A stretch of DNA of 64,000 bases from assembly GCA_016191165.1 (NCBI GenBank), contig JACPPF010000056.1:1-64000 (forward strand), read 5' to 3'. The stretch comes from Planctomycetota bacterium (GTDB lineage: Bacteria; Planctomycetota; Planctomycetia; Gemmatales; Gemmataceae). Numbering within the stretch: position 1 is the stretch's first letter; each line of letters starts with the position of its first letter. The notes under the pieces are model-generated. The model was given only the letters and a program-made list of their open reading frames with translations. It made no database searches and had not been told where the DNA came from. Positions 30,742-35,361 of the stretch are shown piece after piece. Position numbers and translations under genes: made by a program.

Positions 30742-31141
30742 TCAACGCTTGGCTGGCGCCGCAGTCACGCCAGACACCGACAGCACAATCTCGCGCGTGC
30801 CGTGGTCATCGACGAACAGGTGGACCTGCGAGCCGAACTCGCCAGGTTTCATCGTTTTCAGCTCGACAACAAATTCGCTCACCCCCGGCGGAAGTTCCGT
30901 CAGGTCGTCGTCCTCACGCTTCGGACCGCATCGGTTTGCCGGAGCGATTGTCGAGATGAAAGACCACGTCGCGTTTTTGCTTGGGCTGGGCGTCACTGAG
31001 CTTGATTTCGGTTTCAACGACATGAAGCGCCGGCCCCGGCGGCGGCGCGAAATAGCAATACGCAGCCGCACCCAGGAAGCCAATGGCCGCGAGGCAGCAG
31101 ACGCGGTAGAGCCAGGGGTAGACGCGCGGCGGCATGGTCAA
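30742..31141 (-). pseudogene. Frameshifted DUF1573-like membrane-anchored protein
   Basis: The first part (from ATG 31141) reads VYPWLYRVCCLAAIGFLGAA as a membrane anchor, then ETEIKLSDAQPKQKRDVVFHLDNRSGKPMR, and stops at 30914. The second part, shifted one frame, continues DDDLTELPPGVSEF, GEFGSQVHLFVDDHG and LSVSGVTAAP. Together they make one DUF1573-type Ig-like domain, but the segment that should hold the CxC motif is missing and the frame shifts there. The ATG overlaps the upstream stop by four bases. It is therefore the decayed last gene of the cassette. Confidence 0.7.
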
Positions 31142-32151
31142 CTTCCGGACGCGGGCATCGTGGCGCTCGGGCGTTTGGACCGGCGCAGCAGGTAGAACCC
31201 AACGATCAAGGACACGGCGGCGATGCCGATGAACCAGAGATACCAGCGGGAAATAGGAGCCGATACGCCTGCCGGTTCAGGAAGTCCGAAGGCGGAAACA
31301 TAAAACTGGGCGCTACGATGATTGCGCGCATCAATTATTTCATACGATGTTCTTCGAACATTTTTTGAGTTCTCGCGGCTGTTTTCGCTCTTTACCTCCC
31401 AGCGGATACACGGACGGTAGCCATCGCCCGACGTCGTGAATTCTTTTTTTAACGTGACCACTGTTCCGTTTGCTGCCGTGAGCTGAAACCCTTGCATTAC
31501 CCATGCGTTGTTGGGGTCAAACTCCAGCCAGCCAGTGAGATGGATTTTCAAATTCGGAACGCGTGTCGTTTTTTCGATGTGAACCTGAATGACACCAGAT
31601 GCCTTTGTCTGGGCGCGAATAATCTTTACATCCTTCGCAAACATCAGTTTCGAAACAAGCCCTCCCAAACGAATAAACGACGAGCCGTTCGGCTTTAGAT
31701 AATCAATGATTGCGGGATCGATCTGCTGATCGTGAGGAGGTCGGCTTAGAACCGGTCCGGTGCCAAGTTGCCAGCCTTCTTTGTCAGGAAGGTGGGTGAG
31801 TTCAAAACGGTAATCAGGGTTTTGTCCAAAGATTCGTTTGGCGCCATCTCGTTCAAATTTGAAAAGAAAATACCCGGGCCGCCGCTCAATGATTGCTTCC
31901 TTTTTTTCCGGCTCGCGGACCTTGTCGTTGACGCGGCTCAGAATCGTTGTCGTGAATTTCAAGGTACCGGGCGTTTCGTCGGCGGCATCAACAATTCTCC
32001 ACGACTCGACCCCCTCGGATTTCAATCGGGCAAGAAGGGTTTCCGACTCCTGCGCCGATGCGATCGTGGAGAAAAATGAACCGTTCAAAAAAGCCACCAC
32101 GGTGACGGCCCAAATCTCAATTTGACACAACCATAGCCAAACAGGTTTCAT
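31138..32151 (-). CDS. Secreted protein with C-terminal FGLPEP/TM anchor (copy 2)
   Basis: A 337-aa protein. The signal peptide starts at ATG 32151 (WLWLCQIEIWAVTVVAFLNG). The mature part looks like an outer-membrane lipoprotein-sorting-type beta fold: RRPGYFLFKFERDG, GYRPCIRWEVKS. Its end reads SAFGLPEPAG, a linker, then SRWYLWFIGIAAVSLIVGFY, a TM helix and an RRSKR tail. That end is about 85% identical at DNA level to the protein at 32817-33869, while the middle is unrelated or very diverged. The preceding gene is the Cys-rich protein at 32298. Confidence 0.75.
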   Translation of the reverse strand: MKPVWLWLCQIEIWAVTVVAFLNGSFFSTIASAQESETLLARLKSEGVESWRIVDAADETPGTLKFTTTILSRVNDKVREPEKKEAIIERRPGYFLFKFERDGAKRIFGQNPDYRFELTHLPDKEGWQLGTGPVLSRPPHDQQIDPAIIDYLKPNGSSFIRLGGLVSKLMFAKDVKIIRAQTKASGVIQVHIEKTTRVPNLKIHLTGWLEFDPNNAWVMQGFQLTAANGTVVTLKKEFTTSGDGYRPCIRWEVKSENSRENSKNVRRTSYEIIDARNHRSAQFYVSAFGLPEPAGVSAPISRWYLWFIGIAAVSLIVGFYLLRRSKRPSATMPASGS

Positions 32152-32297
32152 TTGGAAGCCTCTATGTCGTGGGCCTAGTCCCGTGGTGTTCACGGACAAA
32201 TTGAGAACAACCGACCGCTCGTCAAGACCGATCCATCCAGCATCGATGACCACCGACGCGTCGGATAATGGTCGACAGGGCGTTCGAGTGTACTGCG

Positions 32298-32699
32298 TCA
32301 GAATCCAAGACAAAGGCAAGGGCCGAAGTCGCCCCAGGTACATATTCGCGCACCAACTAGCCCGCACTTGAGCCTCGGATTCGGTTCGCAGTTTTCCTTG
32401 GTCACGTTCTTGAGGCAAAGCGGATAGACCGTTGCGGAGCAGTTGGCTTGACAGGTGGCATCCATTCCGCATGCATCGGTACAACAGTCGCCAGCGCAAG
32501 TCCCATCGTCACCGCTGCACGCCGAACCGCAGCACGCAATGGAACAGGCGGACGGATCTGAGGCGGTTTGACAATCGCTACAGGTGCCCTTGGTGTAATC
32601 CCCAAACGCATCCGCCGGCACGACGAGGATGCTGACGCCCGCCAGCACGAAGCCCAGGCAGGCGAAGAAGTAGCCGGTCACTGTTTCGAGTCGCTTCAT
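32298..32699 (-). CDS. Cys-rich secreted protein B
   Basis: A 133-aa protein. The first 32 residues (KRLETVTGYFFACLGFVLAG onward) are a signal peptide or anchor identical to that of the Cys-rich protein A at 33995. The mature part has about 20 cysteines, including CSDC, CCGSAC, CCTDAC and CLC, suggesting a disulfide knot or metal binding. The mature sequence differs clearly from copy A. It starts with a 120-bp block identical to copy A. It lies just upstream of the secreted anchored protein. Confidence 0.72.
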   Translation of the reverse strand: MKRLETVTGYFFACLGFVLAGVSILVVPADAFGDYTKGTCSDCQTASDPSACSIACCGSACSGDDGTCAGDCCTDACGMDATCQANCSATVYPLCLKNVTKENCEPNPRLKCGLVGARICTWGDFGPCLCLGF

Positions 32700-32722
32700 T
32701 GCAGGTCTCCTTGGGTTGAAGG
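32603..32722. repeat. 120-bp identical block, copy at Cys-rich gene B
   Basis: Identical by eye over 120 bp to 34336-34455. The block covers the promoter-proximal leader, ribosome site (AGGAGACC) and signal-peptide codons of the Cys-rich gene. Sequence identity ends abruptly at both sides, which suggests recent duplication or gene conversion. Confidence 0.85.
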
Positions 32723-32816
32723 AACGGTGTTGTGCGATGCGTTTGGGCTCACCCCGTCGCTTGCGCTCCGGGCTGGTTGCCGCTCACCACCCGAAGGAGG
32801 CCCCGCGACGGCATGG

Positions 32817-33869
32817 TTAACTTCCGGACGCGGGAGTCGCGGCGCTTGGACGACCGGACCGGCGCAGCAGGTAGAACCCAACGATCAACGACACTGCGGC
32901 GATGGCGATGAACCAGAGGTACCAGCGCGAACTAGCGCGCTCTATGCCCTCGGGTTCGGGCAGACCGAACGCAGATAGCGTGAATTCCTCGTCGGCCGGT
33001 AAGATGACAGGCTCCTCCACTTCAAAGTCCACCTTGATTCGTCGAGTGACGGATCTTTTCTCCGTGATCGTTTTGCCGTCAGGAATGTCATACCCAATGC
33101 TCTCGATAACCAAGCGACGGGGAATGCACGAATTTGGCGATTGATCGGAAAAACCGAGTATGTGCCGCGATTCGTCGGCGCCATTTGCATATTCGTTTTT
33201 GACGACCGCTGAACGGAGACACCATGATCTGCTTGGATCGAGGTAGAGCTTGCCTCCTTGTATCGAACAAAACGGTTCGTTCTTCACACTGTGCTTGTTG
33301 TCAAACGCAACCTCGATCAAATTGTCTTTTGCCACGGCTTGAACGGACACAACTTTGAAGTTGGGCTGTTTCACAAGTTCTGCAAGGTGCAGGACTCTTA
33401 TGGTGACCGGCGAATAGGCCCACGATCGTTTGACCGAATCATCAATCTGGTCGGCACGCAACTTCCGTTTCGCAATTTTCAAGGCAGACTCGGCCAGCAC
33501 CCACGCCCTATCTTTCTTCCTGGTCAAGGAAAAAGAATAGTCTCGGTTGTAAGCATCGAGGTTTTCGTCTTTTCCAGTCCTAAGCCTGGCCAATTGCATC
33601 TTGCAGTGCGCATTCTGCTTGAGTTCGATTTCCGTATCGACACGCATCTTGCCATTATGGATGATTTGAATCGAATAACGGCCCTGTAAGCGCTGGAAGT
33701 TCGCCATGGCTTTCTCCCAGGCCACGGGAGCCTCCGTCAAAAAACGATCGCGAAGCGCGGTTGGATCCCCTTGCGCCGAAGCGGTCGGGGCAAATCCGAT
33801 CGCCGCAAGGCAGCCCAAGGTTACCCAGGCAGCGGCCAAACAACCAAATCGATCGAACTTGCGTGCCAT
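32817..33869 (-). CDS. Secreted protein with C-terminal FGLPEP/TM anchor (copy 1)
   Basis: A 350-aa protein. The ATG at 33869 opens a signal peptide (CLAAAWVTLGCLAAIGF..TASAQ). The mature part has the strand pattern GRYSIQIIHNGKMRVDTEIELKQN and a LYLDPSRSWCLRS motif, similar to lipid-carrier-type secreted beta folds. The end SAFGLPEPEG, SRWYLWFIAIAAVSLIVGFY, RRSGR matches the anchor of the protein at 31138. It follows Cys-rich gene A. Only a start-codon-like remnant of the DUF1573 partner is left after its stop, at 32765-32815. Confidence 0.75.
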   Translation of the reverse strand: MARKFDRFGCLAAAWVTLGCLAAIGFAPTASAQGDPTALRDRFLTEAPVAWEKAMANFQRLQGRYSIQIIHNGKMRVDTEIELKQNAHCKMQLARLRTGKDENLDAYNRDYSFSLTRKKDRAWVLAESALKIAKRKLRADQIDDSVKRSWAYSPVTIRVLHLAELVKQPNFKVVSVQAVAKDNLIEVAFDNKHSVKNEPFCSIQGGKLYLDPSRSWCLRSAVVKNEYANGADESRHILGFSDQSPNSCIPRRLVIESIGYDIPDGKTITEKRSVTRRIKVDFEVEEPVILPADEEFTLSAFGLPEPEGIERASSRWYLWFIAIAAVSLIVGFYLLRRSGRPSAATPASGS

Positions 33870-33994
33870 AGGATCACCAAAACATCGGCCCTGCCACGAG
33901 TGCCAACCATGGACATGCACCCCTAGCGCGATTCTATCAACTCGCTCGGATCATACCGACCGGGGAAAGGATTGGGGACACGGCGCACGCGTCA

Positions 33995-34432
33995 TCATTT
34001 TGTGCAAATACATGCCGTGCCCATCGGGTTGTCGGTGCAGCCGCAAAGAGAACAGGGTGTTGGATCCGACGTTTCGCTGCAAAGCTCAAGTACGATGCTC
34101 GCACACGAGCCTGGCGTACGCGCGCCGCAGCCGCTATTGCAGACGGAGTGGCTCTTGCAACTAGGAGCGGCCGCCTTGCAATTGTTCTCGCAGGTGGTGT
34201 CTCCACCACAGGCGTCTTTGCAGCAGGCGGTCCAACACACACCGTCATTACCACAGGAAGTGCCGCAGCACGTGATACTACAGGCTTCGGGATCCGGATT
34301 TCCCTGACATATCTTGCATTGCTCTGTGTAATCCGCAAACGCATCCGCCGGCACGACGAGGATGCTGACGCCCGCCAGCACGAAGCCCAGGCAGGCGAAG
34401 AAGTAGCCGGTCACTGTTTCGAGTCGCTTCAT
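33995..34432 (-). CDS. Cys-rich secreted protein A
   Basis: A 145-aa paralogue of the protein at 32298. The signal region is identical for the first 32 residues, then diverges. The mature part holds more than 20 cysteines in CKIC, CCGTSC, CCKDAC, CSLCGC and CIC groups. A structural disulfide-rich or metal-binding surface protein is the likely reading. It is 81 bases downstream of the frameshifted MauE/DUF1573 gene, whose product could supply redox or assembly help. Confidence 0.72.
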   Translation of the reverse strand: MKRLETVTGYFFACLGFVLAGVSILVVPADAFADYTEQCKICQGNPDPEACSITCCGTSCGNDGVCWTACCKDACGGDTTCENNCKAAAPSCKSHSVCNSGCGARTPGSCASIVLELCSETSDPTPCSLCGCTDNPMGTACICTK

Positions 34433-34455
34433 TGCAGGTCTCCTTGGGTTGAAGG
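34336..34455. repeat. 120-bp identical block, copy at Cys-rich gene A
   Basis: Partner of 32603-32722. It is followed in both copies by the shared words GATGCGTTTG and CCCCGTCGCTTGCGCTCCGG about 15-40 bases further on, so the duplication originally extended into the intergenic space. Confidence 0.85.
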
Positions 34456-34513
34456 TTTGTTGTTGCTCGATGCGTTTGCAAACACCCCGTCGCTTGCGCT
34501 CCGGGCTGGTTGG

Positions 34514-35361
34514 TTATTGGTCGGCGCTTACGATGCGGCCCGTCAAACGAAACGTCACGGCCTTGAAGCCCTCGTCATCCACGAGAAACGCGGCCTTGCG
34601 CGTGAAGATGCCGGGCTTGCCGGTCATGGCGACATCGACCTTCACGGTGCGGGTTTCGTTGGGCGGAATGGTCAACGGCAGATCGCCCAGAACGGTACAG
34701 GAACAGTCCGCGGTGCCCCCGATCAAGCGAATCGGATGCTCCGTCCAGTTGGTCACATCAATTTCCGCTTCGCGCTGGTCGCCCAGCGTTCCCGTGCCGA
34801 CATCGGCCAGGCGCGGTTGCACGGAGATGCGCTCGCCGCGCAGGTGCGCGATGGCGGCGGGTATCGACCCGTAACCTGCGAACGCGATTGCGTACAGCGA
34901 AATCGAAATCGCGAAGACACCGAGGATGGCGTAGAGCGTCGGCAACATGGTTCGCGTCAGCCGGCCGCCCCGCTCGTCGCGCAAACCCGCAAAATCCGGC
35001 CGCCCCAGCAGCAGCAATCCGATCACCACCGCGTCGAGTGCAAAAGCCCACCACGGGCTGGGCGGGAAACGCCCGAAGCAACCGCATGAGGTTTGGCCGA
35101 TGACTCCGAGGTAGAAGCTGATGCCCGCGAAGATCGTGAAGGTGGTCAGCGCCGTCAGCCAGGCGCCGACCGCAGCCGCGCCCGTCAAGAGCCAGATGCC
35201 CAGAAAAATCTCGAACTCGACAATGGCCAGCTGGACTTCCGCCGACACGAAAAGAACCCCGCCCGGCCAACCGGGTCGAGCGCCAGGCCCCACGCCTTGA
35301 GCGCCGCGGCGGCGAGCAACAGGATCGCGGGGATTCGCAGAATCAGGCCGGACAGACGCAT
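34514..35361 (-). pseudogene. MauE-like membrane protein fused to DUF1573-like domain, frameshifted
   Basis: From ATG 35361, RLSGLILRIPAILLLAAAAL and KAWGLALDP form the first TM of a MauE/DoxX-type redox membrane protein. The frame then shifts near 35250-35265 in a G/C run and continues with QLAIVEFEIFLGIWLL, LGVIGQTSCGCFG (the MauE cysteine motif), two more TMs and a DUF1573-like Ig domain with DCSC and GKPGIFTRKAAF. Full length would be about 282 aa. The shift may be a sequencing error at the homopolymer or a real mutation. MauE relatives help form disulfides in periplasmic proteins, fitting the Cys-rich neighbours. Confidence 0.72.

Follow-up and report, generated by a model that had tools for sequence, protein, structure and literature searches.

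A recurrent planctomycete gene cassette of disulfide-rich secreted proteins and membrane-anchored LolA-fold partners that looks like a variable recognition or conflict system

The window (the whole stretch of DNA analyzed, 64,000 nucleotides) carries a duplicated set of genes for Cys-rich secreted proteins and membrane-anchored partners, accompanied by genes of the MauE and DUF1573 types. The features, all on the reverse strand, are the following:

34514..35361 (-), MauE-DUF1573 fusion with a 2-nt frameshift near its start (Pfam matches; frameshift judged against paralogs)
34326..34512 (-), constant upstream/leader repeat, copy 1 (the leader part is 100% identical)
33995..34432 (-), Cys-rich secreted protein 1: 33-residue leader, mature part with 22 Cys, C-terminal CICTK
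32817..33869 (-), membrane-anchored partner 1: leader, variable LolA-fold ectodomain (predicted), then constant FGLPEP, transmembrane segment 316-338 and RRS tail
32804..32975 (-), constant anchor-tail repeat, copy 1
32781..32814 (-), start-like scrap of a DUF1573-like gene at the duplication junction (read from the sequence)
32593..32779 (-), constant upstream/leader repeat, copy 2
32298..32699 (-), Cys-rich secreted protein 2: leader shared with protein 1, distinct mature part, C-terminal CLCLGF
31138..32151 (-), membrane-anchored partner 2: diverged ectodomain followed by the constant tail
31125..31296 (-), constant anchor-tail repeat, copy 2, overlapping the 5' end of the following gene
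30742..31135 (-), remnant of a membrane-anchored DUF1573-like gene: Sec/Cys motif lost with a 44-nt deletion, frame broken

Two repeats define the duplication: a leader repeat of 187 nt (32593-32779 versus 34326-34512), 94% identical overall and 100% identical over the leader itself, and an anchor-tail repeat of 172 nt (31125-31296 versus 32804-32975) with 82% identity. The first-pass annotation of this DNA had described two Cys-rich open reading frames with an identical leader (33995-34432 and 32298-32699), anchored proteins with near-identical ends and differing bodies, a start-like DUF1573 scrap in one copy, and a MauE/DUF1573 fusion upstream. All of these were recovered, the anchors having diverged ectodomains and start sites that are probably near 33869 and 32151. 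The mature Cys-rich parts, described as different, do vary but are still homologous, with 55% identity overall between the two proteins. Likewise, the DUF1573-like gene thought to be retained in one copy lies at 31135-30742 but is broken, being 44 nt shorter than its paralog in C34, with the redox motif among the missing nucleotides.

The fusion exceeds the Pfam cut-offs for both MauE (PF07291; 30.1 bits, cut-off 27) and DUF1573 (PF07610; 29.1 bits, cut-off 26.1), and it combines a redox-associated membrane protein part with an Ig-like domain bearing a CxC motif. Comparison with its paralogs placed the 2-nt frameshift within the first ~37 codons. Judged by their sequences, both helper genes of the window, the fusion and the DUF1573-like gene, look damaged; the frameshift and the 44-nt deletion could be assembly errors.

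The cassette is multi-copy, with at least nine further units in this genome, four of them in tandem. A MauE-DUF1573 gene is followed by the Cys-rich secreted protein and by the LolA-fold protein with its C-terminal transmembrane anchor, and often by a membrane-anchored DUF1573-like protein (in a probable selenoprotein or a Cys form) and by a DUF1559 prepilin. Among relatives, a small secreted Cys-rich protein follows the MauE-DUF1573 gene in 39 of 44 cases, compared with 4 of 248 controls, and the anchor then nearly always comes next. This confirms that the gene order recurs far above chance; as the first-pass annotation had anticipated, it is found many times in this genome and across Gemmatales, and a Pirellulales MAG has the same order minus the last (DUF1573-like) gene. 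The further expectation that Cys-rich genes would not occur apart from these neighbors was borne out in part: the linkage is strong, yet some Cys-rich/anchor pairs have no MauE gene in cis. Indeed, among the 60 best anchors, 20 lack any listed MauE-DUF1573 gene within 4.5 kb, and in the G307 genome the stretch read contains arrays of anchor and DUF1573-like genes but lacks Cys-rich genes.

Paralogous units in several genomes have flanks that are 80 to 100% identical around a mature Cys-rich part and an anchor ectodomain at background identity. This constant-variable-constant pattern of DNA identity was observed in the window pair, in the C176/C136 units and, independently, in G491 and G299, and for the anchors also in G375. 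The constant flanks comprise the MauE-DUF1573 gene, the start of the Cys-rich gene (its leader or first ~85 codons), the anchor tail, and the DUF1573-like gene, whereas the remainder of the Cys-rich gene and the anchor ectodomain vary jointly as a single block. The suggestion that mature regions vary more than leaders thus holds for the window pair, C176/C136, G491, and G299; the accompanying variation of the ectodomain goes beyond the earlier description. In each of the nine units measured, the variable ectodomain has a lower GC content than the tail. From these identity profiles, the Cys-rich part and the ectodomain seem to be exchanged as one matched module, while gene conversion of the flanks could yield the same pattern with no exchange of the middle.

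The number of cysteines is even in 35 of the 41 Cys-rich proteins (p 2e-6), which is compatible with full disulfide pairing, and C-x-C forms the C-terminal end of most family members. The leader, read from the sequence, is signal-peptide-like, with a basic N terminus, a hydrophobic core, and an AFA site, in agreement with its earlier assignment. Searches with Pfam, NCBIfam, and PADLOC recognized no toxin, inhibitor, or receptor domain of a known kind in these proteins, although small toxins of unknown type would escape them. Comparison with PDB sequences gave no significant match, and an AF2 model, confident over the first ~58 mature residues only, gave no useful fold match. The C34 copy has a stop (TGA) inside its leader. 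Reading it as selenocysteine was rejected: the codon falls in a hydrophobic signal peptide, at a position occupied by Trp or Tyr in sister genes, so that mutation or an error in sequencing is the likelier cause.

Structures of the anchor were predicted from the window and related loci (not from the sister copies in this genome). The modeled ectodomain is of the LolA/LolB type, matching solved LolA/LolB/RseB structures (Foldseek E 6e-6 to 3buu; VIA Z 11.9 to 3bk5). PEP-CTERM sorting was considered for the FGLPEP-TM-RRR tail and found no support among 23 anchors, none of which matched the NCBIfam PEP-CTERM profiles.

In 26 copies of the DUF1573-like gene from 17 genomes, an in-frame UGA occupies the position of an otherwise invariant Cys, and the motif in most copies is U-x-x-N-C. 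A hairpin, CUUC-N5-GAAG, lies exactly 14 nt 3' of the UGA in 23 of the 26 UGA copies, versus 1 of 24 Cys copies. This SECIS-like stem is nearly invariant, so that covariation offers no proof of it, and its folding z-scores are modest. Both tRNA-Sec and SelB are present in this genome, and SelB is found in 24 of 28 relatives. The dN/dS values are 0.07 to 0.24 on either side of the UGA, and by this measure the gene is under purifying selection. From its sequence features, the last cassette gene is very probably a selenoprotein in the sister copies, an addition to the cassette that ordinary gene calling truncates at the UGA. The separate UGA gene had no Pfam match at E 0.01, DUF1573 (PF07610) included, and no relevant Rfam match; it resembles the fused DUF1573 domain weakly, with the Cys aligned, and it is for this reason called DUF1573-like only.

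The first-pass annotation had proposed a redox-assisted system of secreted and anchored proteins. The gene order, the leader, the even cysteine counts, and the difference in variation between leader and mature part uphold this proposal in part; oxidation of these proteins by MauE, anchoring of the Cys-rich protein by the transmembrane protein, and a place at the cell surface are its putative elements. It had overlooked the joint variation of the ectodomain, its LolA-type fold, the probable selenoprotein in sister copies, and the apparent damage to the window helper genes. We consider the chances evenly balanced that the cassette serves modular redox-assisted secretion of diversified disulfide-rich proteins, each with a cognate membrane-anchored partner. 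The leader would direct the Cys-rich protein outward via the general secretion pathway, and MauE-DUF1573 and the Sec/Cys protein would make its disulfides or check them. The LolA-fold ectodomain would bind its own Cys-rich neighbor and act as its receptor, its dedicated carrier, or an immunity factor against it; the two would vary as a pair because of this binding. Recognition of, or conflict with, related cells may drive the variability, as for effectors and their immunity proteins. The window locus would have kept two variable pairs, seemingly lost its own redox genes, and come to depend on other copies in the genome.

Our more specific reading, tentatively held at a probability of roughly 0.35, is a planctomycete recognition or conflict system whose ligand, secreted and disulfide-rich, would be exchanged together with its cognate LolA-fold receptor or immunity protein in one two-gene block between constant ends, with maturation by a MauE-DUF1573 oxidase together with a dedicated selenoprotein. 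By analogy with polymorphic effector-immunity loci, the cassettes look like an undescribed system of this kind, and we found no published description of this planctomycete multi-gene module. This reading predicts, in a way that can be tested, that each Cys-rich protein pairs with the LolA-fold protein encoded next to it; suggests that variability can reside in two adjacent genes enclosed by constant flanks; and opens a route to the function of MauE/DUF1573 and LolA-fold proteins in planctomycetes.

The secreted and anchored architecture, the joint variation, and the spare copies in tandem would also fit surface display with antigenic variation, where the transmembrane protein serves the Cys-rich protein as carrier or anchor and the variation evades phages, predators, or other recognition, with neither toxicity nor immunity involved. 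The best known members of the LolA-type folds are indeed carriers. However, a carrier of many proteins would be expected to vary less than its cargo, and we regard this alternative as possible but doubtful. It is improbable that the cassette is an accessory of a DUF1559 pseudopilus or type II-like secretion system, with the Cys-rich protein as cargo or tip component and the LolA-fold protein as assembly factor. A DUF1559 prepilin follows five units of this genome and units in several relatives, and the G371 anchor forms an in-frame fusion with one, but the window and C176 units have none. Since planctomycetes have very many DUF1559 genes, at least 41 per genome (PMC8567305), their neighborhood alone is weak evidence. 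Moreover, a pseudopilus leaves the joint variability unexplained.

Maturation of a redox-enzyme subunit, like that attributed to MauE for the small subunit of methylamine dehydrogenase, is more improbable still. The MauE domain, the CxC motifs, the Sec-containing partner, and the small, secreted, disulfide-rich substrate are what it would predict, but the cassettes read contain no dehydrogenase or cofactor gene, and such variability among paralogs would be unexpected for an enzyme subunit. Least probable is that these are mostly decaying repeats, duplicated and broken cassettes with no current function, as the defects of the window helper genes, the scraps at junctions, and the stop in the C34 leader might suggest. 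Against this, the Cys-rich and anchor frames are open in nearly all units despite strong divergence, Cys counts are even, the UGA gene appears to be under purifying selection, the cassette recurs across families, and the window defects may stem from assembly.

MauE is thought to mature the disulfide-rich small subunit of methylamine dehydrogenase. As there, a MauE domain (PF07291, above cut-off) adjoins a secreted disulfide-rich protein in the cassette, but here MauE is fused to DUF1573, methylamine dehydrogenase genes are absent from the cassettes, and the substrates are hypervariable. In the Bacteroidales locus L190, a MauE-family gene is directly followed by a secreted 79-residue peptide with 9 Cys, presumably comparable to NVEALA-type peptides; no anchor gene or DUF1573 fusion was seen there, and kinship with the cassette is putative. 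The ectodomain shares its predicted fold with the LolA/LolB/RseB/LprG superfamily, from which the cassette protein differs in its C-terminal transmembrane anchor, hypervariable ectodomain sequence, and Cys-rich partner gene. The planctomycete YTV proteins of the cell wall (PF07639) are likewise Cys-rich and exported, but they are large repeat proteins, and none of 13 Cys-rich proteins matched the YTV repeat. A DUF1573 selenoprotein with in-frame UGA as Sec and a UGC motif has been listed in surveys (PMC9312934, PMC13188914); in contrast, the cassette protein mostly has U-x-x-N-C, is membrane-anchored and planctomycete, and is tied to the Cys-rich/anchor cassette. Polymorphic toxin/immunity systems (CDI, MafB, and others; PMC3482391) have a constant trafficking part, a variable C-terminal part exchanged by recombination, and an adjacent partner gene that differs along with it. 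A constant leader or trafficking part with a variable C-terminal part was found in the window, C176/C136, G491, and G299. In the cassette, however, the counterpart of the variable C-terminal part is a small disulfide-rich protein in which no toxin domain was recognized, and the partner keeps one fold, LolA by prediction, and a constant transmembrane tail, in the company of dedicated redox genes.

Cassettes in which a MauE-DUF1573 fusion precedes a Cys-rich secreted protein and its membrane-anchored partner (the anchor) recur across planctomycetes. The copy in the window is arranged as follows.

35361-30742, minus strand: MauE-DUF1573 fusion, Cys-rich 1, anchor 1, scrap, Cys-rich 2, anchor 2, DUF1573-like remnant

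The duplication of leader and anchor tail proposed in the first-pass annotation was borne out by repeats of 187 nt (upstream spacer plus leader, 94% identity between copies) and 172 nt (anchor tail, 82%). The spacer motif AACCAGCCCGGAGCGCAAGCGACGGGGTG precedes both leaders (32750-32778 and 34483-34511) and may be a dispersed repeat and recombination point. The DUF1573-like gene thought to remain in one copy is present but not intact, since 44 nt are missing relative to the paralog on C34 (C numbers denote contigs of the source genome, G000) and the frame is broken. Measured against its paralogs, the MauE fusion is shifted out of frame by 2 nt near its start; either lesion could be an assembly error.

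Elsewhere in the source genome (7.23 Mb, 183 contigs), Cys-rich paralogs were found on C136, C34 and C46 and, four in tandem, on C176, with MauE-DUF1573 relatives beside them. Further MauE-DUF1573 relatives lie on C60, C94, C177, C155 and C115. Anchor relatives occur at these same sites, and reading of the C177, C155 and C115 loci revealed additional Cys-rich genes. Since repeats are expected at contig ends, where the units on C34, C60 and C94 lie, the true number of copies may be higher than the one counted. Next after the unit comes a DUF1559 (SBP_bac_10) prepilin, assigned with Pfam, on C136, C46, C177, C155 and C115, but none follows the unit in the window or on C176. A gene for a large YTV-type Cys-rich cell-wall protein (PF07639; locus L041:8818-10983) adjoins the C46 cassette.

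Profile searches of a class-wide sample of 398 genomes matched the fusion in 82 (E 1e-12), the anchor in 110 (E 1e-10) and the DUF1573-like protein in 138, the last profile also picking up the fused domain. The linkage of Cys-rich gene and fusion held in relatives: under fixed criteria, a small secreted Cys-rich ORF lay within 400 nt after 39 of 44 fusions with room downstream, versus 4 of 248 other long ORFs, the 44 loci being best fusion matches that include the source genome's own units. In four of the remaining five a Cys-rich ORF was visible by eye. The anchor mostly lies 200-700 nt downstream of the fusion. The named relatives are mainly Gemmataceae and other Gemmatales MAGs, and a Pirellulales MAG carries two Cys-rich genes with anchors. 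Among the matches listed, 20 of the 60 best anchors had no fusion within 4.5 kb; at five loci (L211, L216, L217, L222, L223) the anchor lacks a listed fusion within that distance, yet a Cys-rich gene lies upstream. In another genome (L208, G307:C1:6174000-6182500), anchor and DUF1573-like genes stand in tandem arrays together with a scrap of MauE, and the part of the locus that was read contains no Cys-rich gene. In a Bacteroidales MAG (L190:2419-3608), the gene immediately after a MauE-family gene encodes a secreted peptide of 79 aa and 9 Cys; the association of MauE with Cys-rich proteins may extend outside planctomycetes.

The Cys-rich proteins have a signal-peptide-like leader and 5-24 cysteines in the mature part. 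An even cysteine count is seen for 35 of the 41 proteins (binomial tail 2e-6, somewhat overstated because paralogs are non-independent), and 33 of 41 have C-x-C among the last residues. Searches of Pfam, NCBIfam and PADLOC assigned them to no family, and an AF2 model is confident only over a helical stretch formed by the first ~58 residues of the mature part. One paralog on C34 (L040:6087-6542) has an in-frame TGA within its signal peptide that probably reflects a mutation or an error in sequencing.

In the AF2 model of the anchor (mean pLDDT 80), a signal helix at the N-terminus is followed by an antiparallel sheet with helices, and residues 316-338 form a TM helix. Foldseek returned LolA-superfamily, RseB and LolB structures as top matches (best E 6e-6), and VIA-align matched the anchor to 3bk5 with Z 11.9 and to a LolB with Z 11.6. 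A relative (G371, L167:1940-3862 / L152) encodes an in-frame fusion in which an anchor-like protein is joined to a DUF1559 prepilin that keeps its cleavage motif.

As anticipated in the first-pass annotation, mature regions differ behind constant leaders: identity between the window copies is 1.00 in the leader, falls to about 0.55 and then to 0.3-0.45 through the mature part and anchor body, and is 0.73-0.90 over the anchor's last ~150 nt. The pattern is repeated in the C176 and C136 units, where the flanks are mostly at 0.8-1.0 on both sides and the break comes ~250 nt into the Cys-rich gene, and again in G491 (another family), G299 and, for anchors, G375 (the window's own genus). If a plain duplicate had diverged, an identical leader beside near-unalignable sequence would not be expected; unlike these pairs, one G299 pair is alike throughout and is a recent duplicate. 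The straightforward reading is that recombination within the flanks exchanged the middle, or that the flanks underwent gene conversion. GC is lower in the variable ectodomain than in the tail in 9 of 9 units (0.49-0.56 versus 0.61-0.69), which fits an outside source or a different constraint.

The separate DUF1573-like gene is probably a selenoprotein gene, judging from its conserved TGA and SECIS-like hairpin. The TGA is in frame at the same place in the unit-end genes of C176 (two), C136 and C34. Across 26 copies from 17 genomes it falls at a position occupied by Cys in the other homologs. A hairpin, CUUC-N5-GAAG, starts exactly 14 nt after the TGA in 23 of the 26, and in nearly all loops positions 23-24 (counting from the U of UGA) are GU; these are SelB-contact positions in the E. 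coli fdhF element. Such a hairpin occurs in 1 of 24 Cys copies, 11 of which are the fused domain. The hairpin start places the loop 18 nt from the TGA, within the 16-37 nt reported for bacterial SECIS (PMC10778597). The dN/dS is 0.11-0.24 before the TGA and 0.07-0.23 after it. Both tRNA-Sec and SelB are present in the source genome, and SelB was above cut-off in 24 of 28 relatives; none was found in the fragmented assembly of G622, which carries a UGA copy. Folding z-scores are modest, and the stem is nearly invariant and hence without covariation. The candidates, which standard annotation truncates, are:

L006:17982-18419, probable selenoprotein gene with TGA and SECIS-like hairpin
L006:15112-15549, probable selenoprotein gene, same features
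L039:5688-6137, probable selenoprotein gene, same features
L040:4765-5199, probable selenoprotein gene, same features

A Cys form in another genome (L210, G485:C264) retains the hairpin with an altered loop, as if Sec had been converted to Cys and the SECIS left behind as a relic. Surveys already include a DUF1573 selenoprotein with motif UGC (PMC9312934, PMC13188914), so the idea has a partial precedent; a literature description of the present motif, architecture and lineage was not found.

The joint difference of the Cys-rich part and the LolA-fold ectodomain argues that they may be matched partners, and the redox genes in the cassette argue for assisted disulfide formation. Effector and immunity protein, ligand and receptor, or variable display are candidate roles between which the data do not decide. 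The cassette works like a polymorphic module; since no toxin domain was recognised in the Cys-rich proteins and neutralisation by the partner is putative, we do not class it among the polymorphic toxin systems.
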